From IMG/VR virus record IMGVR_UViG_3300010158_004804, positions 1 through 20,062 of that record: a stretch of DNA of 20,062 nucleotides; one strand, written 5' to 3'. How positions within the stretch are numbered: position 1 is the stretch's first letter; each line of letters opens with the position of its first letter. Under the pieces are notes generated by a model. That model was given only the letters and a program-made list of their open reading frames with translations, searched no databases and was not told the origin of the DNA. The DNA comes from a virus. The position numbers were made by a program, and so were the translations under genes. Of the stretch, positions 3,121-19,714 are shown piece by piece.

Positions 3121-3159
3121 TTTATGCCCAATGTGTCATTGCGCCACCTTGGGCATAAA
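3121..3159. repeat. Perfect 11-bp inverted repeat, 17-nt loop
   Basis: TTTATGCCCAA (3121-3131) and TTGGGCATAAA (3149-3159) pair perfectly. The flanking A/T lies inside the stem and no T-run follows, so a simple terminator is not clearly supported. It could be a protein-binding site or part of a structured RNA with the next hairpin 21 bp away. Confidence 0.6.
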
Positions 3160-3180: not shown

Positions 3181-3224
3181 CCATCAAGGGTTCGCAAGCC
3201 ACCCCGTTGGGGTGCCCTTGACGG
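3181..3224. ncRNA. Nested stem-loop, possible structured RNA element
   Basis: An outer stem pairs 3181-3190 with 3215-3224 (CC, TCAAGGG with CCCTTGA, GG; one A/C mismatch). An inner stem CACCCC (3200-3205) with GGGGTG (3209-3214) has a 3-nt loop. The inner 3' strand runs straight into the outer 3' strand, while nine bases (TTCGCAAGC) bulge on the 5' side. This compact two-helix form on either strand suggests a folded RNA or a recombinase or packaging site. No known RNA family is recognised. Confidence 0.4.
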
Positions 3225-3272
3225 AATGACGTTGTTATTTAAGCGAAAAACCCTCCTTTTTATAGCTATTTG

Positions 3273-3352
3273 ATACTTATGGGTATCAATTAAGTGTATT
3301 AATTAATACCTATAGGTTACAATTAGACATATTAATTAATACCTATAGGTAT
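3273..3352 (+). promoter_or_regulatory. Three phased operators before the Fic module
   Basis: The 14-bp palindrome ATACCTATAGGTAT is perfect at 3339-3352. Near-copies are ATACCTATAGGTTA at 3306-3319 and ATACTTATGGGTAT at 3273-3286. The three starts are exactly 33 bp apart, about three helical turns, so all sites face the same side of DNA. The last two copies sit in a 21-bp exact direct repeat (3297-3317, 3330-3350). A -10-like TACAAT (3318-3323) abuts the middle site, and the last site covers the region just before the ATG at 3357, including the only Shine-Dalgarno-like AGGT. Inference: the HTH protein encoded directly downstream binds here cooperatively and represses its own operon. Confidence 0.75.
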
Positions 3353-3356
3353 CAAT

Positions 3357-3815
3357 ATGAACAAGAAATTTGCCAACTTACAACTCCATCAAATGGACTT
3401 GGTCCTTACCAAGCTTAGGGAAGTTCGTCCTCCAACCCGTCCAGCTAGCGGCTGGGTTAAAACTATTCGCGAATCTTTGGGCATGTCAGCCTCTGCATTG
3501 GCTCGCAAGCTAGGCGTTACACCCGCCAGTATTACAAAGCTTGAAAAGGCTGAAGCCGATGAAAAGATCACTTTAGCTAGCCTACGTAAATTAGCTAGTG
3601 CCTTAGATTGTGAGTTGCAATACACCCTCGTGCCACGCAAGTCTTTAGAGGAAATCTTGGAAGATCGCGCTACTTTAGTTGCGCGTGAAAGACTGCGCCC
3701 TATTTCTCATTCAATGAGTCTTGAGGATCAGTCGGTAGACAAGTCTGCCAGCGAAAAGCAACTTCAACTTCTCGCAAAAGAGATTCTGGATGGTCCTAGA
3801 AGGAATCTATGGTGA
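3357..3815 (+). CDS. Mobile mystery protein A (HTH regulator)
   Basis: A 152-aa protein matching the 'mobile mystery protein A' family (TIGR02612), which occurs in pairs with a Fic-domain partner on mobile DNA. A Xre/Cro-type helix-turn-helix spans about residues 33-90 (GWVKTIRESLGMSASALARK, then LGVTPASITKLEKAEADEKI). The N-terminus (FANLQLHQMDLVLTKLREVR PPTRP) and the helical C-terminus are typical of the family. It probably acts as the antitoxin-like repressor of the module, binding the three palindromes just upstream. It runs opposite to the surrounding phage operon and overlaps the Fic gene by 7 nt, so the two genes are co-translated. Toxin/antitoxin roles for this pair are an inference from Fic biology. 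Confidence 0.85.
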   Translation: MNKKFANLQLHQMDLVLTKLREVRPPTRPASGWVKTIRESLGMSASALARKLGVTPASITKLEKAEADEKITLASLRKLASALDCELQYTLVPRKSLEEILEDRATLVARERLRPISHSMSLEDQSVDKSASEKQLQLLAKEILDGPRRNLW

Positions 3816-4399
3816 TGCAGTTTGAATACGCACCAGGAGCTACTCCGATTGATCCGGATGAAGCTCAGGGTCTTATCCCCAAACACATTAGCACTCAAGC
3901 TGATTTAAACGCTTGGGAAGAAATGAATATTGTCGAAGGTGCAGATTGGATTGCGCGTCAAAAGATCATTCAAGCTTTAAATGAGGGCTTGGTGCGTGAA
4001 TTGCATAGTCGTATGTTTAATCAAACTTGGCAGTGGGCTGGCACATTCAGAAAGAGCGCCAAGAGTATCGGCATTGATTGGACTCAGATTGCCGTTGCCC
4101 TCAAGAATCTCTTAGATAACACTACCTATCAAATTGAAAACAAGGCGATGCCCATTGATGAGATTGTTGTGCGCTTTCATCATCAGTTAGTGTTGATTCA
4201 TGCGTTTCCAAATGGCAATGGTCGTCATGCGCGATTAATGGCTGATGCTTTGATTGTGAGCCTTGGTGGTAAAAGATTTTCTTGGGGCGGCAATACTTCA
4301 ATCGCCACCCCAGGCACTACACGTCAAAACTACCTACTAGCCCTGCGCGCCGCAGATAAAGGCGATATCGCGCCCTTAATGTTATTTGCTAGGCAATAG
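3809..4399 (+). CDS. Mobile mystery protein B (Fic-domain protein)
   Basis: A 196-aa Fic/DOC protein of the 'mobile mystery protein B' family (TIGR02613). Fic enzymes transfer AMP or other nucleotide parts from a cofactor onto target proteins. The active-site loop HAFPNGNGRHAR lies at residues 131-142: catalytic H131, anion-binding GNGR and R142 are all present. Position 135 is Asn where classical Fic enzymes carry Asp/Glu to hold Mg2+. The N-terminal EEMNIVEGADW segment is in the place of the inhibitory helix of some Fic proteins, but lacks the usual Ser/Thr. The chosen start has AGAAGGA upstream; GTG (3812) and ATG (3815) alternatives are in frame. Its stop lies 1 nt from the stop of the facing scaffold gene. 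Confidence 0.88.
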   Translation: MVMQFEYAPGATPIDPDEAQGLIPKHISTQADLNAWEEMNIVEGADWIARQKIIQALNEGLVRELHSRMFNQTWQWAGTFRKSAKSIGIDWTQIAVALKNLLDNTTYQIENKAMPIDEIVVRFHHQLVLIHAFPNGNGRHARLMADALIVSLGGKRFSWGGNTSIATPGTTRQNYLLALRAADKGDIAPLMLFARQ

Positions 4400-4421
4400 A
4401 CTAGATACCCATATTGCCTAG
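4389..4421. repeat. Perfect 10-bp inverted repeat over two facing stop codons
   Basis: CTAGGCAATA (4389-4398) and TATTGCCTAG (4412-4421) pair perfectly around a 13-nt loop. The left arm encodes the end of the Fic protein, the right arm the end of the scaffold protein on the other strand, and both stop codons (4397-4399 and 4401-4403) lie in the structure. No T-run follows on either strand. It may be a bidirectional transcription barrier made from coding DNA, or a trace of the module's insertion. Confidence 0.6.
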
Positions 4422-5723
4422 GTGTTGGGCTATACGATCCATGGGTTGCTCAGAGCTTGCAACAGGTGATCCCAAGGTAGCTGTTCTAGCTCTAATCGGT
4501 TGTGGCGCATGGCTCGTAACCTTTACCTTAGACCAGTCTGGTTTTGGCAAGCCTATGGAGTTGTAAATGGAATCAATTACTGGCCACCATTCAAATACGC
4601 CATGGTTTTGCACGAATACATTCATGTAAAACGGGTCATCCATATATTTAGCGAAGAGCTCAGACTTATAGCAATGATCAATCTCGCCCTGTCTTGTAGA
4701 AAGGTACTTGAGCATTTCCTGCTTAGCCTCTTTAACAACGCTGAAGTGATCCTTGTTTAGGTAGGACTTTCCCGGCTTTTCGTGCCACTTCTCTTTCTTA
4801 TTGCGATCTACCGAATCCATCATGCTACCCACCAGCTCACCTTCAATTTCGTAGCTATGTAACTTATCTAAAAGATCTTCTACCTTTGACTTGAGCGCAT
4901 CGTTCTCTTTAGCAAGATCACGATTGGTATTAGCCATCTTTTGGAATCGGTTTTCACTACGATTCGGTTGTGTCGCCTCCTCTACTGGCTCCTTGGGGGT
5001 CTCCTCGGTTGCGCTCAAGACTCTTTCAATGAGATCCTTGCCACTTTCTACCTGCATGGAAGCTTGCGACTCGGCCTCAACGGTAAGTACAACAGGGGGT
5101 GGCAATAACTCGCTGATATCTCTGGCAGCTATTAGCTCCGGTTCTGGATTAGACGTTAATGAAGGCATCTCAGCCGGTATTAGCACCTCACCCTTCACTG
5201 GTGCAAAGACAGGTTCTGCGCTCTCCTCTTCAGCCTCTTGCTCTTGAGTGGGTTCACCTTCTTCAGCCTCAGGCTCTTTAGTCCCCGTCTCTTTACTGAG
5301 GCTATCAAGCAAGGCAACAGGCTTGTGCTGAGTCTTACGCTTAGCTTCTTCTTGCTGCTGAAGCGCCGCCTTTTCTGCAAGCCTTCTCTCAAGGTCTTTC
5401 TGCCTCTCTAATCTAGCCGCTTCCTTTGCAGCAACCACTTGAAGTCGTGCCACTTCATCTTGAACTGACTTCTCATCAGCTTTTCTTCGCCGCTCTTCGT
5501 CCGCTAATTGTTTAGCCTTAGCTTGGGCTTCTTGCTCTGCTTTTTCTAAGGCGCGCTCTTCCCTTGCCTTTATGCGCCTGGCAACGGCTTCAGCCGCACT
5601 CTTCTCTTCAGCCTCTTTACGCAATTTTTCTTGCTGGCGCTTTGCTTCACGCTCTTGCTCTTTCTGAACTAAACCTCCATTGGTTAATACTCCAGAGCTA
5701 AAGTTTTTCACTGCTTGTGTCAT
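4401..5723 (-). CDS. Coiled-coil phage scaffold candidate
   Basis: A 440-aa protein lying between portal and capsid genes, where tailed phages place the head scaffolding protein. Residues about 18-140 are a long charged, Glu/Lys/Ala/Gln-rich coiled coil of TolA-like composition. Residues 140-250 are acidic and Pro/Glu-rich, probably disordered. A second coiled coil (about 255-295) precedes a more ordered C-terminal domain with aromatic clusters (FEWWPVIDSIYNSIG) and a basic tail. Scaffold proteins are mostly helical and bind coat protein by a basic C-terminus, which fits. The start at 5723 has a GGGGAG ribosome site and overlaps the portal's 3' end by 26 nt. An internal head protein is the alternative; function rests on position and composition. 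Confidence 0.6.
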   Translation of the reverse strand: MTQAVKNFSSGVLTNGGLVQKEQEREAKRQQEKLRKEAEEKSAAEAVARRIKAREERALEKAEQEAQAKAKQLADEERRRKADEKSVQDEVARLQVVAAKEAARLERQKDLERRLAEKAALQQQEEAKRKTQHKPVALLDSLSKETGTKEPEAEEGEPTQEQEAEEESAEPVFAPVKGEVLIPAEMPSLTSNPEPELIAARDISELLPPPVVLTVEAESQASMQVESGKDLIERVLSATEETPKEPVEEATQPNRSENRFQKMANTNRDLAKENDALKSKVEDLLDKLHSYEIEGELVGSMMDSVDRNKKEKWHEKPGKSYLNKDHFSVVKEAKQEMLKYLSTRQGEIDHCYKSELFAKYMDDPFYMNVFVQNHGVFEWWPVIDSIYNSIGLPKPDWSKVKVTSHAPQPIRARTATLGSPVASSEQPMDRIAQHLGNMGI

Positions 5724-7771: not shown

Positions 7772-8431
7772 CTAGTGGTTATGTTCTGAATTCCTCATCG
7801 GCATACTTCCTCCATTCATTGGCATATGCTTTTGAATCTGCTTCACTTGTTCAGGAGTCATATTGCCCATCATCTGCTGGTGCATTTGCATCATCTGCGA
7901 ATACATGGCTGGGTCACATTGTTCATGTCCAGTATTACCGCTCATTTGATGAGTATTAGCACCTTTATAGCCAAGTAAAGATGGGTCTAGCATCCCTGCA
8001 ATCATGGCAATGTGTCCAAAGACTAGGAATAAGGCCACACAAATTGCATGAACCTTTAACTTACCCATTTGGTCTAGGGCTTTATTCACAAAGCCAAACT
8101 CTTGCAAGGCAATCCAAATCAATGGCAAGCCACCAATCAGATAACTACCCACAGCAACCACATCAATAGCGGTTCTCCACTCACCGCCTTTGGTAATTGG
8201 AACAACTGCGGTTGTCATTAAATAGACAATGATGCCTATGAAATAAAGTCCAACAGTTGTGCCTGAAAAGCGATTCAGGTGATAGACAAAGCCATCAAAC
8301 TTTCGTGTGAACAGGATATACAGTTCAGTAATTGCCAACGTTTCAGCAAGAACTATCGGTATAGCCATAAAGATAAGCAGATTCCACGGCTGGTTGTCTG
8401 CCAATAACTGCATATAGTGAGTCATATTCAT
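7772..8431 (-). CDS. DUF6803-like membrane protein with Met/His-rich tail
   Basis: A 219-aa inner-membrane protein resembling the DUF6803 ('permease'-annotated) family; its function is not established. Four hydrophobic segments lie near residues 17-41, 58-79, 89-110 and 127-148. The tail (about 160-219) is rich in Met and His, with repeated MM, HQQMM, MPMNGG and HNH stretches and one Cys, a composition typical of copper-binding regions. GGAG precedes the ATG at a good distance. It is the last gene of a minus-strand group with a His/Cys-rich secreted protein, an HMA metallochaperone and a 40-aa membrane peptide, and a strong terminator follows. The group suggests copper or silver handling, but transport by this protein is unproven. 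Confidence 0.7.
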   Translation of the reverse strand: MNMTHYMQLLADNQPWNLLIFMAIPIVLAETLAITELYILFTRKFDGFVYHLNRFSGTTVGLYFIGIIVYLMTTAVVPITKGGEWRTAIDVVAVGSYLIGGLPLIWIALQEFGFVNKALDQMGKLKVHAICVALFLVFGHIAMIAGMLDPSLLGYKGANTHQMSGNTGHEQCDPAMYSQMMQMHQQMMGNMTPEQVKQIQKHMPMNGGSMPMRNSEHNH

Positions 8432-8489
8432 TACTAAATCTCCAAAACATAAATTATCAAAACGACCTAAGTCGTTAAATCAAAGGTGA

Positions 8490-8825
8490 TTACAGATATT
8501 GTTTTGGTGGTTTGTAGATAGATTCAGCAATATTGGAAATAGACTTGGGTGTTTCACCAAGCAAATAAACATCAGATGATTCGTTTAGAGCAAAAACAAT
8601 TGGATTATTTAAAACTGCAATAGAAGAGCAGCAATAGTGGCTGACACTTAACTTGCTAACTGGCTTCGAGTCATCATGGGCTGCAGGAGTCACAACCTCC
8701 TCGCAATGGCTATGAGAAGCAGTTTGCTTGGCATGAGAAGACTCTCCTACCGATATAGGCATGGTGCTGGCATTGACCATGCTAACCAAGAAACTTAAAA
8801 AGAGCATTACTGCAGTCTTCTTCAT
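8490..8825 (-). CDS. Small secreted His/Cys-rich protein
   Basis: A 111-aa protein with a clear Sec signal peptide (KK, then a hydrophobic core, cleavage probably after VNA near residue 19). The mature part has a metal-ligand-like cluster: HSHC (C41) and, about 25 residues later, HYCC (C65, C66), with further His between. The HC...HxCC layout resembles DUF2946/CopL-type small proteins found with copper genes, but the match is only partial. The ribosome site is weak. It lies 40 nt after the HMA gene and would be co-transcribed with it. A periplasmic or cell-surface metal-binding role is an inference. Confidence 0.6.
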   Translation of the reverse strand: MKKTAVMLFLSFLVSMVNASTMPISVGESSHAKQTASHSHCEEVVTPAAHDDSKPVSKLSVSHYCCSSIAVLNNPIVFALNESSDVYLLGETPKSISNIAESIYKPPKQYL

Positions 8826-8865
8826 GGGTTTATTTTAAGCCCTAATAGCCAATTAAGTTTGGTGA

Positions 8866-9129
8866 TCAGCCACAACAGCAGCCACCACTCTTTTTCTGGG
8901 TAGGAGCAGCTGACTGCTCATCCAAGTCCAAGCTTGATGGATAACCTTCTTCATCTAAAGCATGGATCAAGTCGTCAGACTGGTTGGTAGCTCTAGAAAC
9001 TTGCACACGACCAGATTGCAGATCCACATTGACACTCTCAACGCCACTTAAAGACTCAATGGCTTTAGTTACATGTTTTACACATGAACCGCAAGTCATA
9101 CCCTGCACGCTTAAATTGATTTGAGGCAT
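8866..9129 (-). CDS. HMA-domain metallochaperone (CopZ-like)
   Basis: An 87-aa cytoplasmic protein with one heavy-metal-associated domain. The loop GMTCGSC places Cu(I)-type ligands at C13 and C16, followed by the usual helix (VKHVTKAIESLSGV) and strand (ESVNVDLQSGRVQV). The classic domain ends near residue 66. An extra tail adds KKSGGCCCG, three successive Cys that could hold further metal. Such proteins pass Cu(I) to P1B ATPases or sensors; no ATPase gene is in the window. The ribosome site AAGGAG is strong. A 40-aa membrane peptide gene lies just upstream on the same strand. Confidence 0.88.
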   Translation of the reverse strand: MPQINLSVQGMTCGSCVKHVTKAIESLSGVESVNVDLQSGRVQVSRATNQSDDLIHALDEEGYPSSLDLDEQSAAPTQKKSGGCCCG

Positions 9130-9163
9130 TTTCTTCTCCTTTTTTCTATATACCTATATATGT

Positions 9164-9286
9164 TTACTTTTTTGAGAAAAACAAGTACTTACATAGGGCT
9201 GCTATTGAAAGAATTAGTGCAGTCAGAGCCAAAATACCTACCAAGCCCATGCCACCCATCATTGAGCCACCCATGATTTGATTCAT
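9164..9286 (-). CDS. 40-aa Met/Gly-rich single-membrane peptide
   Basis: A small reading frame beginning MNQIMGGSMMGGMG, continuing as a hydrophobic helix of about 18 residues (LVGILALTALILSIAALC) and ending KYLFFSKK. A perfect GGAGG lies 6-7 nt before the ATG, strong support for translation. Met-rich N-termini of this kind occur on small proteins of copper clusters, and the gene heads the same minus-strand group as the HMA protein. The topology is probably a single TM helix with the basic end in the cytoplasm. Its role is unknown; metal delivery at the membrane is a guess. Confidence 0.65.
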   Translation of the reverse strand: MNQIMGGSMMGGMGLVGILALTALILSIAALCKYLFFSKK

Positions 9287-9329
9287 ACCAACCTCCACTA
9301 GGCTTTATGCCCAGTTTCATCCTATGCTT

Positions 9330-9350
9330 ATCTAGGCAGCATGTCTAGGT
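9330..9350 (-). promoter_or_regulatory. MerR-type dyad candidate for the metal cassette
   Basis: A 21-bp imperfect palindrome (minus strand ACCTAGACATGCTGCCTAGAT; 7 of 10 pairs match) with a -35-like TTTATAC upstream and a TAAGCAT -10-like string downstream. A long spacer containing a dyad is the layout used by CueR/MerR activators. It lies 44 bp before the 40-aa gene. The -35 is poor and no regulator gene is visible in the window. Confidence 0.3.
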
Positions 9351-9390
9351 TTGTATAAACTGGACCGCATCACACTATTTAGAGGCACAA

Positions 9391-9741
9391 ATGGCTTGGA
9401 TCATTACCAAATATCTCCTAACCGCAGGAATGGTGGTCTTCATTAGTGAAGTTGCCAAACGAAGTGATAGGTTGGGCGGTTTCATGGCAGCATTACCGCT
9501 CATGACATTGCTCACCCTAGTTTGGCTTTATGTCGAGAACCAAACTGAAGAGAAGATTGCCAATCACGCTTATTACACCTTTTGGTATGTGATCCCAACT
9601 TTACCGATGTTTCTATTATTCCCATACTTACTTCCAAAGCTGGGTTTCTGGATAACTATGGGTGCATGCATAGTGGCAACGGTTATTTGCTTTGGCTTAT
9701 TTGCATTGCTGATGAAAGGGTTTGGGATTAATCTGATTTAG
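9391..9741 (+). CDS. DUF3147 family membrane protein
   Basis: A 116-aa polytopic inner-membrane protein of the DUF3147 type, function unknown. It has about four hydrophobic segments (near residues 3-20, 28-48, 62-81 and 86-113), with the family-like GGFMAALPLMTLLTLVWLY stretch. It is transcribed away from the metal genes and toward the terminase gene, whose 3' end faces it 51 nt away. AGAGG precedes the start. It is typical chromosomal cargo rather than a phage gene; an additional part of the metal cassette is likely but unproven. Confidence 0.75.
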   Translation: MAWIITKYLLTAGMVVFISEVAKRSDRLGGFMAALPLMTLLTLVWLYVENQTEEKIANHAYYTFWYVIPTLPMFLLFPYLLPKLGFWITMGACIVATVICFGLFALLMKGFGINLI

Positions 9742-13492: not shown

Positions 13493-15871
13493 TCATGAAA
13501 TCACTCCGCCAATAACGACATCTGTGATATCCCTCTGAAGATTTATAAATTGAATAATGCTAGCTTCAAGCTCATCACATAAAGCCATTATTTCGTCTAT
13601 TTTTAGAGAAATTCTTTTTTGCTCCTCAATGGGAGGTATAAATAAAATGACCTGCGAGAGATCCAGTAAAGATACATTATTCATGGCTCCTCCTCGCGCC
13701 TTTTCTTTTATTTGATCCGCAACAAATGAATCCAATTGCTTCAATAGAAAGGTGGGATAAAAAACATCTCTTGTTCCTCGTATGATCGCAAATGCCTGAT
13801 TGGTATTCGCGGGAATATCACAATCTCGAACAATACAGGTCCTACCAATAGTTCCTGCAATCGAGAATAGTATGTCATCAACCTCTAGACTGGAGCGGGA
13901 TAATATACGATCAACTTCATGGGAGATATATTGATCAATTGAGTCAATATTAATAATTCCATCGCTTACGTTTTCAACTTTAATAAAATTTACCCCAGAC
14001 TTCTGATAGGAGTGACCTAGAGAGGTTGGTGTTGTACCCTTAGTAATTAATGTTGCAATATCCCCTAAACGCCCTACCGCCCATTGTGAAGGAATTGAAT
14101 AATTTTTGATATCTCCAACTGGGATTGCTTGAGATTTTTTTCTTTTAGAAACCGAATTTTTAGACAAATTAGTATTTATTAATTCAATAGCCTCCAATAA
14201 CTCACTTGCGTAACCTTCAATTTCGAGCTGCGGCACCAAGAATCCACGAATACCTAAATTCAATATTAATTCTCTAAGTCTATGGATTCCATAAACACCG
14301 CCAGCGTTAGAAGATGATCTACCACGTCCCAATTTTTTTTCCAAATCAGGCGCAGTACATATATCAAACCGCTCTATCAATATTCTTTGAACTAAACTCA
14401 ATTCCAAGTTACCGAGAAAGCAATTTTCAAGAACCGCCCCAAGCTCTTTTCTTTTTATAGAAATTTCCTCTCGAAGCCTCTGATATTTAGCCAATAAATC
14501 TTCGGGGTCTTGAAGTCTTCCCTGTAATGTTTGGGGATTTTTAATATCAAGACTATAGTTTCTAGCCTTGATGTCTTCAATAGTTACCTTCCAGGCGCAC
14601 TCATTCTCCTTGCGATCTTTAAAACTATCCCCTTCGGACCCCCACCAAGATTTCTCCACCTCAAATTCCTGAATCCTCATTGGCTTTGTTTTGTTATAGC
14701 TCTTCACACCCTCTGGATAAGGATGCTCATAAAACCAAACATCTTTTGTTGGGGCGCCCTTAGTGAAAAATATAAGGTTTGTATTGATTGAGGTATAGGG
14801 CGCAAAGACGCCCTTAGGCAATCGCACAATAGTGTGAAGATTACATTCCTCCAGCAGCTTTTCTTTGATCCGGGTTTTAATGCCTTCTCCAAATAAGAAG
14901 CCATCCGGTAGAACTACCGCCGCGCGCCCACCTGGCTTGAGCATTTGCATAATCAGAACCAGAAAAAGGTCTGCAGTTTCTCTTGTTCTAAATGTCGCCG
15001 GGAAGTTGGTTTCAATTCCATCCTCTTCCATGCCACCAAATGGTGGATTAGTAACTATGACATCTACTCGCTCAGATGGACCCCAGCTAATAAGGGGTCT
15101 TGCTAACGTATTGTCATGGCGAATGTTGCTTGGCACATCGATACCATGAAGGATCATGTTAGTTGTGCAGAGTAAGTGCGGCATTGGTTTTTTCTCAATG
15201 CCATAGATGCTGCCTTGCAACTGAGCCTCATCCTCTAACGTTTTGACGTCTTGTTTTCTGATGTGCTCAATTGAGCATGACAAGAATCCACCTGTTCCGC
15301 AGGCTGGGTCCATTACCTTCTCACCAAGACGTGGGTTAACCATCTGAACCATGAATTCAGTCACCGCCCTTGGGGTATAGAACTCGCCTGCATTACCCGC
15401 TGCTTGGAGGTCTCTCAGAAGTTGCTCATACATATCGCCAAAGAGGTGGCGCTCTTGGGCTTTGTTGAAATCTACGCCTTCTTGAATCTTATTAATCACC
15501 TGGCGAATCAGCTGGCCAGATTTCATATAGTTATAGGCGTCCTCGAATACCGACCGGATAACATAAGCGCGCTGATCACCGCCTTTAGCCTCTAGGTTTT
15601 GTAAGGCTGGGAATAGATCGTTATCCAAGAATTGCTTTAGCTCATCTCCGGTCATGCCCTCAGCATTGGCCGCCCAATTTCTCCAGCGGTACTTTTCGGG
15701 AAGTGGGGACCTGTACTTATCCTGAAGCAATTCCCACTCGCTCTCACGATCATCAAAAATCTTCAGGAAGAGCATCCACACCAATTGACTCAAACGCTGG
15801 GCATCACCATCAACACCTACGTCTTTGCGCATGATGTCTTGGATTGATTTAATAGTTGAACTAATGCTCAT
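13493..15871 (-). CDS. Fused Type I modification/specificity protein (HsdM-HsdS)
   Basis: A 792-aa fusion. Residues 1-450 are an HsdM adenine methyltransferase: N-terminal HsdM helical domain, FYTPRAV, SAM-binding motif DPACGTGGF (188-196) and catalytic NPPF (275-278). After a coiled-coil linker (about 455-500) comes an HsdS start motif, LRELILNLGIRGFLVPQ (532-548), then one target-recognition domain (about 590-745: WAVGRLGDIATLITKG to FIPPIEEQKRIS) and a final coiled coil. Ordinary HsdS has two recognition domains; one implies a dimer reading a symmetric split site. It methylates adenine in the target and guides the HsdR partner encoded 37 bp upstream. The specificity part looks clearly more AT-rich than the methylase part, a sign of domain exchange. 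Confidence 0.9.
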   Translation of the reverse strand: MSISSTIKSIQDIMRKDVGVDGDAQRLSQLVWMLFLKIFDDRESEWELLQDKYRSPLPEKYRWRNWAANAEGMTGDELKQFLDNDLFPALQNLEAKGGDQRAYVIRSVFEDAYNYMKSGQLIRQVINKIQEGVDFNKAQERHLFGDMYEQLLRDLQAAGNAGEFYTPRAVTEFMVQMVNPRLGEKVMDPACGTGGFLSCSIEHIRKQDVKTLEDEAQLQGSIYGIEKKPMPHLLCTTNMILHGIDVPSNIRHDNTLARPLISWGPSERVDVIVTNPPFGGMEEDGIETNFPATFRTRETADLFLVLIMQMLKPGGRAAVVLPDGFLFGEGIKTRIKEKLLEECNLHTIVRLPKGVFAPYTSINTNLIFFTKGAPTKDVWFYEHPYPEGVKSYNKTKPMRIQEFEVEKSWWGSEGDSFKDRKENECAWKVTIEDIKARNYSLDIKNPQTLQGRLQDPEDLLAKYQRLREEISIKRKELGAVLENCFLGNLELSLVQRILIERFDICTAPDLEKKLGRGRSSSNAGGVYGIHRLRELILNLGIRGFLVPQLEIEGYASELLEAIELINTNLSKNSVSKRKKSQAIPVGDIKNYSIPSQWAVGRLGDIATLITKGTTPTSLGHSYQKSGVNFIKVENVSDGIINIDSIDQYISHEVDRILSRSSLEVDDILFSIAGTIGRTCIVRDCDIPANTNQAFAIIRGTRDVFYPTFLLKQLDSFVADQIKEKARGGAMNNVSLLDLSQVILFIPPIEEQKRISLKIDEIMALCDELEASIIQFINLQRDITDVVIGGVIS

Positions 15872-15908
15872 AAGTGGTAAAGCCTATCTGTTGGTATTGC
15901 TATGAATT

Positions 15909-18269
15909 TTAGGCGTAGAGCTGGTTTTCTAGCTCATGCAAAGCAGCTATATAGCCTGACTTACCGCCAAAGGCTGATACAAGCTCACTTGCTGTGCCCA
16001 TTTTACTAAATGGGTCCAGGGTCAGAATCTTAATATCGTCGATATTCTCGATGCCGGTATCCGCATACTTTTCAAGTAAAGCCTCGAGAACCTTACGGGC
16101 TTGTTCGCCATACTTGGTGAAGTAGTTACGCTTTTTAACTTGCTCTGCACGCTCTCTACGAGTCAGAGCAGGCTGGTCAAACGCTACATGACAAATTAGA
16201 TCAAATGCATCGCAGTCTTTGCTTACTTCTAGAGCCAGCGCCTCAAGGAGGACTCCATGCTCTTCAAGCTCTTTAATCACTGCAGCCTTACGCTCAGCAG
16301 AAGTCCACCTCTTTAGGAAATCATCCAGGGTTGAATAGTCTTTGCGAACTGCTTTGCGTGTGTAGTCTTTTAATGACTCGGTAATTAACTTACCCTCTGG
16401 ACCATAGTATTGAACACGCTCAGCAATCACTTGCACCTCTACATCGCCAATATAGTATTTAGCGCGTTTACCTTCAGGACCCGGTGGGAAGCCTTCTCCA
16501 CCAGCATCACCACCTTCACCACCAGGTAAACCGCCTCCACTACCACCCTCTTCGCCAGGCTCATCAGGCGGTATAGGAGGATCATTTGGTCCTGGGTTGT
16601 AGACAACAATTGGCGGGCCATCAAATGCTTCGTCTGCAAAAAGCTCAGTAGCCTTTTTAAAGTCCATGATGGTGAACCAGTATTTGCCGTAATCTTCGTT
16701 AATTCGAGTGCCGCGCCCAATCATCTGCTTGAATTCGGTCATGGACTTGATATGTTGATCAAGCACAACTAGCTTGCAGGTTTGCGCATCTACACCAGTA
16801 GTCATTAGCTTAGAGGTTGTTGCAATTACTGGGTAACGTTCTTCTGGGTTAATGAAGTTATCAAGCTCAGCTTTGCCTTCTTGCTCATCACCGGTAATGC
16901 GCATGACGTACTTGCGATTTTCTTTGACGCGATCTGGGTTTAAGTTGACCAGGGCTTGGCGCATGCGCTCTGCATGATCAATGTCATCACAAAATACGAT
17001 GGTCTTAGCATATGGATCAGTAGCGGTTAAGAATTCAGTAATCTTCTTAGCCACTAGCTCTGTCCGCTTTTCCAAGACCAAGGTTCGATCCATGTCACTC
17101 TGGTTATAGATACGATCCTCGATTACTTGCCCACGTTTGTCTAACTGCCCCGTACTAGGCCTCCAGCCTTGAAGATCTCTATCGATATCAATTCGTATCA
17201 CCTTATAAGGCGCAAGGAAACCATCTTCAATTCCCTGCTTTAGTGAATAGCTATAAACAGGATCACCAAAATAAGTAATGCTTGATATTTCCTTAGTTTC
17301 TTTTGGTGTGGCTGTTAAGCCAATGTGTGTGGCAGAAGAAAAGTAATCCAAGATCTCACGCCAAGCTGAATCTTCAGAGGCGCTGCCGCGATGACACTCA
17401 TCAATCACGATCAAATCAAAGAAGTCTGGCGAGAACTGCTTGTAAATATTCTTTTCTTCATCATTGCCAGTAACAGCCTGATAAAGGGATAAGTAGATTT
17501 CATAGCTCTTATCAATCTGACGCTTGCTGATCTTAGTCATCGCAGCGCCAAATGGCTTGAAGTCGTTATTTTTTGTTTGATCCACAAGGATGTTGCGGTC
17601 AGCTAAAAATAAAATACGCTTCTTTGTACCAGACTTCCATAAGCGCCAGATGATCTGAAAAGCTGTGTACGTCTTCCCGGTACCGGTAGCCATTACCAGC
17701 AGAATGCGATTGGCACCATTGGCCACCGCTTCGATTGTTCTGTTGACTGCATTGACTTGGTAATACCTTGGAGCGCGCCCTGTGCCATCGTCGTAATAAG
17801 GCATTTCTAAGGTATTTTTTGCCTCAGGGGTATCAACTCCCTTCCATTTGCAATAACGTGCCCATAGCTCTTCTGGTGACGGGAATGCCCCCAAAGAAAG
17901 CTCTTGCTCAACCTTATCTGCTAAACCAGTTCGGTCATGCATTAAGAATGCATCACCGTTTGAACTAAATACAAAAGGCACATCAAGCGTTTCCGCGTAA
18001 TCTAGCGCTTGCTGCATTCCTGCGCCAACACTGAGGTTGTTTTCTTTGGCCTCGATTACGGCGATGGGAATATTAGATTTGTAATACAGAACGTAATCTG
18101 CGCGCTTTTGCTGTCCGCGGGTATGTAACTTGCCGCGAACAATGATGCGACCTTTAGTAAAACTTAATTCCTCGCGAATTTGAGTGTGCAAATCCCAGCC
18201 TGCGCCAAGAATGGCTGGCGTAATGAATTTCGTACAAATATCTCGTTCGCTAAGGGATTTCTTGCTCAT
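15909..18269 (-). CDS. hsdR: Type I restriction enzyme R subunit
   Basis: A 786-aa restriction subunit, the DNA-translocating nuclease of the Type I complex. The PD-(D/E)XK nuclease is near the N-terminus with D58 (RADYV) and E73-x-K75 (VIEAKEN). Superfamily-2 helicase motifs follow: Walker A MATGTGKT (193-200), DECH (290-293), GLTATP (317-322) and [12 protein letters not shown] (515-526). A Gly/Pro-rich linker (559-600) leads to the C-terminal domain that binds the methylase. All key residues are present, so the enzyme looks active. It is first in the operon; hsdMS follows after 37 bp. No strong ribosome site precedes the ATG. A short CCTTA/TAAGG palindrome at 18297-18312 lies in its upstream region and could be part of control. 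Confidence 0.93.
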
Positions 18270-18730: not shown

Positions 18731-19714
18731 CTAAAGCGAATCTTCATTGCGTGATTTTTCAACATCCGAAATCATTACTTCAAGAGGTATAGCATCAATT
18801 TGTATTGAGGCATTTTTTATTTGACCCAGTAATTTTTTAGCAAAGTCAAATACATCCTCATCCCCTACTATCCAATTTACTTGCTGATTTTCAATAAAAG
18901 CATTTACGAGTCTAAGCTGCTCATTTTCATTGAATTGATCATATTTATTTAACTTTGCAATGGCAGCATGTGTAGCAGCGAAGTTATATGAGGACTCCAA
19001 CTTCAGGATTGCATCCTTCTTATCAATCTCATCTGAAAGCTTTATATCCGGAAAGTACTCTTTAAGTAGTTCGGGCAGCCCCTTGAATAATCTTATTTCA
19101 GATCGTTTTCTAGCTCTCCACTCCCTCTGAAGGAAATCCTTCACGGCTCCCGGGGTAAGCACAGACTCAAAGTCACCGTCACCACTAACAATGTTTAAGT
19201 CCTCAAGTTCGGGTACAGAAACAATCAACCATTCCCAATTGATAGCGTCGCCAAGACTATCCTTTTTACCTGGTGGATTTCCAATTTGTTGTCGATCTTT
19301 AGCTTTGAGAATGATTTCTTGATCTATGGATTCTTCTTTAAATTGGTCAAATAGAACCTCTATAAGCTCGTCCGCTTTTAACCTACTCTCAACTGCCTGT
19401 AGGGTTACGTCTGCTTTAATATCCTTTACGAGCTGATTAAAGCTTTCCTGAAGGCCTCTTAACTCGGGTATCCGATCATGCGTTTTTGCCATATTCGGAA
19501 GAGATGAAGAAGCCTTACTTTTTTCAAATAATTCAATAGACTCCTTTACAACCCTCTCGCGATTTCGATAAAACTCATCCTTAACCTGCTTGGGTAAGTA
19601 AATCTTTATTTGAGAGGTCTGATGAAGTTTTATTACTTTCTTCAGCTCATCCAAGTCAGGCCCAGACAGGTGATATAAGTCCAACAAAATATTCGTATCG
19701 ATGAAAATATTCAT
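18731..19714 (-). CDS. PIN-domain protein, DUF4935-like
   Basis: A 327-aa protein with an N-terminal PIN-type ribonuclease fold (about residues 1-185). Probable metal-binding acids are D6 (FIDTNIL), E47 (VKDEF), D152/D156 (KKDSLGDAINW) and D179/D181 (SGDGDF), the usual PIN quartet. The long helical insert (about 50-140) and the size fit the DUF4935 group. The C-terminal 130 residues are mostly helical and unrecognised. PIN proteins cut RNA and are often toxins, but the typical VapC is about 130 aa with a neighbouring antitoxin, and none is seen here. It sits next to the restriction operon, so a defence role is possible. The ATG at 19714 has AAGG upstream. Confidence 0.8.
   Translation of the reverse strand: MNIFIDTNILLDLYHLSGPDLDELKKVIKLHQTSQIKIYLPKQVKDEFYRNRERVVKESIELFEKSKASSSLPNMAKTHDRIPELRGLQESFNQLVKDIKADVTLQAVESRLKADELIEVLFDQFKEESIDQEIILKAKDRQQIGNPPGKKDSLGDAINWEWLIVSVPELEDLNIVSGDGDFESVLTPGAVKDFLQREWRARKRSEIRLFKGLPELLKEYFPDIKLSDEIDKKDAILKLESSYNFAATHAAIAKLNKYDQFNENEQLRLVNAFIENQQVNWIVGDEDVFDFAKKLLGQIKNASIQIDAIPLEVMISDVEKSRNEDSL

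Follow-up and report, generated by a model that had tools for sequence, protein, structure and literature searches.

Putative operators at a fixed 32–33-bp step upstream of mmpAB, most likely an autorepressed, class I Fic toxin-antitoxin-like cassette on a Polynucleobacter prophage

The mmpAB genes (mobile mystery proteins A and B) of a prophage-like virus record are preceded by three palindromic sites spaced at exactly 33 bp, and a step of 32–33 bp recurs upstream of most mmpA genes of the family. On sequence grounds this array is a hallmark of the MmpA family, and the gene pair is most likely an autorepressed, class I Fic toxin-antitoxin-like cassette residing on a Polynucleobacter prophage. 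The best explanation, in which we place considerable confidence, is that the sites are MmpA operators mediating negative autoregulation of mmpAB, with MmpA likely also inhibiting MmpB. The data point to a conserved self-control switch of which we found no description in the literature searched. Mobile mystery A/B pairs occur on plasmids, in prophages and on islands in several phyla, and an operator ladder of fixed geometry, common to most of the family, provides a testable regulatory model for mmpAB.

The operator array and the mmpA promoter

The window (the whole 20,062-bp stretch analysed, an IMG/VR virus record) contains the following array and promoter elements:

3271–3288, unstranded: putative operator O1, 18-bp dyad TGATACTTATGGGTATCA, upstream of the promoter
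3294–3300, plus strand: putative -35 region, GTGTAT or TGTATT; in L004 and other near relatives the sequence is TTGTAT
3304–3321, unstranded: putative operator O2, 18-bp dyad TAATACCTATAGGTTACA, in the -35/-10 spacer
3318–3323, plus strand: putative -10 element TACAAT, overlapping the right edge of O2, with TAnnnT at the same offset in relatives
3337–3354, unstranded: putative operator O3, 18-bp dyad TAATACCTATAGGTATCA, downstream of the predicted transcription start and overlapping the likely ribosome-binding site

A pattern search with the 14-bp form ATACCTATAGGTAT, allowing up to two mismatches, matched the 20 kb window only at 3273, 3306 and 3339 (2, 2 and 0 mismatches), which are the three sites that the earlier note had picked out; with up to three mismatches there were 6 matches, against 0.73 expected by chance. 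The exact 33-bp spacing also held when the window was searched for repeats independently and without bias, as this returned three 24-nt copies with start-to-start distances of 33 and 33. The pitch corresponds to about 3.1 helical turns. The dyads end from 69 to 3 bp upstream of the mmpA ATG; the array lies directly upstream of mmpA and mmpB.

The earlier note had the sites flanking a -10-like element and reaching the ribosome site. The second part stands, with TAGGT in O3 located 6 nt before the ATG, at the position of a ribosome-binding site; the first is better described as an overlap between the -10 element and the right edge of the middle site. O2 departs from symmetry here (GGTTACA versus GGTATCA), and the departure coincides with the putative TACAAT, so that the asymmetry of its right arm is explained by the overlap.

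The mmpA promoter of the window is weak by consensus and was not picked up by a simple sigma-70 consensus scan; it was identified by comparison with relatives only. When 31 proteobacterial loci are anchored on the middle site, 13 have a TTG located 18 bp ahead of the O2 centre, versus none for O1 and O3, and 22 have TAnnnT 5 bp past the O2 centre, versus 2 for O1 and 0 for O3; the signal is clear solely in this O2-anchored alignment, automatic picking of promoters locus by locus being noisy. Judged by the alignment, O2 fills the -35/-10 spacer in most proteobacterial loci. The dyads and the operon promoter, the latter placed by comparison, overlap in the manner of autoregulated toxin-antitoxin operons.

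Conservation of the spacing

The upstream regions of 65 MmpA homologues were examined first, and 137 loci were collected in all, 64 of them representatives below 75% protein identity. For each locus, all spacings from 18 to 60 bp were considered, and the pair of similar dyads that scored best was taken. The best pair was spaced at 32–34 bp in 47 of the 64 (33 bp in 28, 32 bp in 16 and 34 bp in 3), compared with 8.6% of shuffled MmpA upstream regions, and spacings were scattered for 24 other Xre-type genes, most of which came from those genome searches that had supplied the MmpA loci. The MmpA sequences are related by descent, a dependence that the 75% thinning, the control genes and the further sets described below lessen but do not abolish. 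The phased palindromes that the earlier note had expected upstream of other mobile mystery A genes are thus present family-wide, and the adverse outcome, their absence upstream of close homologues, did not occur.

The mean spacing profile of the MmpA loci peaks at 32, 33 and 66 bp only, and there is no signal in it at other same-face distances, such as 22–23 or 43–44 bp. Helical phasing alone, in which any multiple of a turn would serve, is unsupported by this profile.

With the method fixed beforehand, 9 of 12 plasmid loci (mostly Alpha- and Gammaproteobacteria) and 13 of 14 viral contigs had pairs at 32–33 bp, the viral set being supportive rather than independent, as some of its members are nearly identical to one another or to genome loci already counted. 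Confident triples (n = 52) were spaced 33/33 in 32 cases, 32/32 in 8 and mixed in 12, and in a few loci (L046, L056 and L125) the 32–33-bp step is repeated over four or five sites. By this method a 32–34-bp pair was not found in 17 of the 64 representatives or in 3 of the 12 plasmids; some of these loci apparently have no array (e.g., Euzebya L181 in the plasmid set), and others have decayed or asymmetric sites.

Site sequences, dyad length and the likely binding protein

The sites are alike within a locus and differ between lineages. Half-sites are ATACCTA in Polynucleobacter, AGCCTA in Pseudomonas, CCAGG in L056, TTGCA in L034 and L040, and AAGG in several Bacteroidota loci, and examples of whole sites are GCCTATAGGC (Pseudomonas), CCAGGNNNNNNCCTGG (L056) and AAGGNTATANCCTTA (Bacteroidota). 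The spacing is kept from Proteobacteria to Bacteroidota despite this complete change of half-sites. Eight loci, mostly cyanobacterial (L052, L054, L055, L057–L059, L064 and L191), have sites that resemble hybrids of two half-sites, GGAGTGAT and GCAACCTAT, in alternating orientation (e.g., GGAGTGATAGGTTGC), and the palindrome score partly misses them.

Because the sites were chosen by pairing, a pairing test at arm positions 1–8 is circular, and only position 9 and beyond were used. Across homologues position 9 is paired in 69% of cases versus 31% in shuffled sequence, and position 10 in 52% versus 45%; by site, position 9 is paired in 77% of O1, 71% of O2 and 60% of O3, versus about 30% when shuffled. 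The arms are therefore paired through position 9 and not beyond, which makes the operator an 18-bp dyad.

The features of the first gene are as follows:

3357–3815, plus strand: mmpA, mobile mystery protein A, 152 aa, with an Xre/Cro-CI type HTH and C-terminal helices
3522–3557, plus strand: codons of the predicted HTH recognition helix, residues 56–67, from the AF2 model and the co-variation of segment 55–64

The assignment to mobile mystery A/B in the earlier note was correct, MmpA and MmpB both scoring above their family cut-offs (148.1 versus 122.6 bits for TIGR02612, and 222.1 versus 124.4 bits for TIGR02613); MmpA also matches PF01381. The AF2 model of MmpA has a mean pLDDT of 92.9, and the second helix of its HTH pair comprises residues 56–67. 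Each ten-residue segment of MmpA (n = 142) was compared with half-site variation over 52 loci, after the similarity of the remaining protein had been removed. Residues 55–64 (TPASITKLEK), which we had taken beforehand to be the recognition helix from an alignment with the phage 434 repressor, rank first of the 142 (partial r 0.263, permutation p 0.0005), in a test that has no explicit phylogeny and uses the ranking of segments as its control.

Each of three Polynucleobacter genomes contains a single copy of the perfect Polynucleobacter site, with up to one mismatch allowed, and in every case it is at mmpA. The nearest solved folds of MmpA include HipB, also HipB bound to O1-O2. Because of the co-variation of helix and half-site, the HipB fold relatives and the confinement of the site to mmpA in these genomes, MmpA itself is the likely ligand of the sites. 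The first and third of these points favour the self-binding part of the autorepression proposed in the earlier note, and the repression part is suggested by the location of O2 in the promoter spacer.

MmpB and the putative Fic-inhibitory motif

The second gene and the motif in MmpA that bears on it are:

3711–3731, plus strand: SMSLEDQ, MmpA residues 119–125, putative Fic-inhibitory motif [S/T]xxxE, from conservation in 61 MmpA sequences
3809–4399, plus strand: mmpB, mobile mystery protein B, 196 aa, Fic fold, overlapping the end of mmpA by 7 nt

MmpB, encoded directly downstream of mmpA, exceeds the gathering cut-off of PF02661 (Fic; 45.3 versus 24 bits), and its closest solved folds in the PDB are three VbhT-VbhA complexes. 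The published Fic-inhibitory motif is (S/T)xxxE(G/N), and in class I Fic proteins a partner supplies it in trans (PMC5651007). The only invariant residues among 61 aligned MmpA proteins are G32, W33, R38, E66, L122, E123 and W152. E123 lies in a C-terminal-half motif, H[S/T]MxLExQ, in which E123 and L122 are each found in 61/61 and S/T119 in 55/61. The residue after E123 is D (30), A (11), N (7), E (5) or G (5); it is D in the window, versus G/N in the published motif. MmpB, for its part, is a Fic protein without its own inhibitory motif, as is characteristic of class I: [S/T]xxxE[G/N] is absent from the first 60 aa in 46 of 48 MmpB sequences (present there in 2, and anywhere in 5). Taken together, we infer that MmpA combines an operator-binding repressor and a Fic antitoxin in one protein.

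The canonical motif of AMP-transferring Fic proteins is given as HPFx[D/E]GN[G/K]R (PMC7479194). MmpB residues 131–139 read HAFPNGNGR and depart from it, and 46 of 48 relatives have N at the fifth position of the core HxFPNGNGR, in place of D/E. For this reason, we do not claim AMP transfer by MmpB. MmpB also matches a candidate phage-defence profile, PDC-S04 (PADLOC), with an E value of 1.6e-18, and may therefore serve the prophage in phage exclusion.

Proposed mechanism and alternatives

From the array, its conservation, the promoter position, the helix/half-site co-variation and the MmpA motif, we infer a scheme of binding, repression, cooperativity and MmpB inhibition. An MmpA dimer would bind each 18-bp dyad through its HTH, and the 33-bp pitch would set three dimers on one face of the DNA, a single fixed distance apart. 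With O2 occupied, the promoter would be blocked by a dimer lying between -35 and -10; with O3 occupied, the transcript start and ribosome-binding site would be covered; and O1 would act as upstream reinforcement. The outcome would be negative autoregulation of mmpAB. At the protein level, the glutamate of the C-terminal [S/T]MxLE of MmpA would be presented to the MmpB active site, holding MmpB inactive in the manner of a class I antitoxin. If MmpA both represses the operon and inhibits MmpB, free MmpA would therefore set toxin activity as well as toxin expression.

The fixed spacing suggests that MmpA dimers may cooperate. Contact between neighbouring dimers, or dimers bridged by MmpB, is favoured because the step is exact rather than merely phased and continues in the loci with four or five sites. 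Carried further, the array may be a template for a regular higher-order repressor assembly, in which MmpA dimers, possibly MmpB-bridged, are stacked on one face at an invariant 32–33-bp step; one protein would then couple Fic inhibition (through E123) to occupancy of the operator ladder, with specificity free to diversify at a fixed geometry. We offer this extension tentatively, as possible but by no means probable. Alternatively, MmpA could bind all sites independently, the pitch deriving from promoter geometry and the dimers making no contact with one another. The positions of O2 and O3 do coincide with promoter and start-codon landmarks, as this would have it, but the step runs on to fourth and fifth sites past the core promoter (L046, L056, L125), and the profile is empty at other same-face distances (e.g., 22–23 or 43–44 bp), which leaves independent binding a rather unlikely reading.

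Three sites around a promoter also recall the layout of lambda OR, and O1 is upstream of -35, where an activator could sit, so that MmpA might be an activator or a two-way switch like lambda CI instead of a plain repressor. Such a role is improbable, since in the majority of proteobacterial loci a dimer on O2 would sit within the promoter and one on O3 over the early transcript, and at either place it should be obstructive. Xre repressors acting on dyad operators are used by phages, and the window is a prophage-like virus record, which together would allow the sites to belong to some other regulator, of host or phage origin, with no relation to MmpA. We consider this very improbable: the site is found only at mmpA in the three host genomes, travels with the cassette, and follows the MmpA recognition helix in sequence across phyla. 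A host regulator as binder was rejected on the absence of the perfect site elsewhere in those genomes.

Control at the RNA level, with the palindromes acting as transcript hairpins, gains something from O3, whose predicted place in the 5' leader would let it fold over the ribosome-binding site that it overlaps; such control is extremely improbable nonetheless, as O1 and O2 are upstream of the predicted transcription start and a 33-bp pitch has no RNA rationale. An Rfam search gave no match, and an RNA structure reading was rejected. Neutral tandem duplication, with the spacing a remnant of the duplicated unit, is scarcely credible, for although the likeness of O2 and O3 in the window extends beyond the dyad (the 24-nt family), most of the MmpA family retains the spacing despite a full change of sequence, and the arms still pair.

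Comparison with known systems

Under the preferred reading, of MmpA operators and negative autoregulation, the closest parallels differ from mmpAB in distinct ways. E. coli hipBA, whose HipB is an Xre-type antitoxin, likewise has several 18-bp dyads upstream of an antitoxin-toxin operon, but its four TATCCN8GGATA sites are spaced at 28, 39 and 28, versus a uniform 32–33 at mmpA, and its toxin is a kinase, whereas mmpAB encodes a Fic protein. Lambda OR has three 17-bp operators around a promoter and a CI/Cro-type HTH binder; however, its annotated sites are spaced at 23 and 24 bp and form a bidirectional switch. Class I Fic modules (VbhT/VbhA, EcFicT/EcFicA and Fic-1/AntF) share with mmpAB a small upstream gene with [S/T]xxxE, overlapping genes and a Fic partner without its own motif, and VbhT-VbhA provides the best PDB folds for MmpB. 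They differ in that MmpA adds an HTH, the last motif residue is D versus G/N, and the Fic core has N versus D/E.

In xre-res of Pseudomonas putida, an Xre antitoxin complex represses its own promoter via a palindromic repeat and a second site; the toxin there is a RES protein, about 20 bp separate the two modelled sites, and the available part of the article reports no phased array of at least three equal sites (PMC12204516). A 2009 survey, as far as its text was available, counted 22 occurrences of Fic/Doc genes beside xre genes as potential toxin-antitoxin systems, and no operator or promoter analysis of Xre-Fic/Doc pairs was found in that text (PMC2701414). The literature searched, with subscription journals mostly outside it, contained no description of a 33-bp phased repressor array. 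The mobile mystery A/B pair, whose regulation the earlier note called poorly described, is almost undescribed in the literature available to the search, where it is mentioned, for example, in a table of genes and among the genes listed for an island.

The roughly 50 matched repressor/operator pairs, of constant geometry and changing specificity, would form a natural series for deriving rules of HTH-DNA recognition and for orthogonal repressors. An HTH and a putative Fic-inhibitory motif in one protein also make mmpAB a candidate autoregulated class I Fic toxin-antitoxin system.

Genomic setting

The minus strand of the window carries phage genes for a capsid protein (NF033394), a portal-like protein, an M15 peptidase and a probable terminase, and mmpAB lies among these on the plus strand. 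Four Polynucleobacter genomes (L002, L004, L005 and L147) have the same prophage region at about 80–92% DNA identity, with mmpAB in the same place. In six other loci (L006–L011) the surroundings are unrelated and the shared stretch runs just from about 3215–3331 to 4287–4453, that is, from near O1 to past mmpB; the moving unit therefore appears to consist of the operators, mmpA and mmpB. No MmpA match was found in annotated phage genomes.

Upstream of the array, at 3121–3159, is a 15-bp inverted repeat, TTTATGCCCAATGTG/CACCTTGGGCATAAA, with arms 93% complementary and a 9-nt loop; it is near the start of homology with L003 (3117). Between the portal-like and terminase-like genes, positions 7772–9741 hold cellular-looking, non-viral-looking genes, which encode a DUF6803 protein, a small, probably secreted protein, a heavy-metal-associated (HMA) domain protein and a small membrane-like protein. 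A type I restriction-modification pair occupies 13493–18269, in which methylase and specificity domains are fused in one protein of 792 aa (HsdM_N, N6_Mtase, Methylase_S) that adjoins an EcoAI-type HsdR. Finally, 18731–19714 encodes a protein with a PIN_12/PIN_8 domain that matches, at its C-terminal end, the PADLOC candidate defence model PDC-S34.
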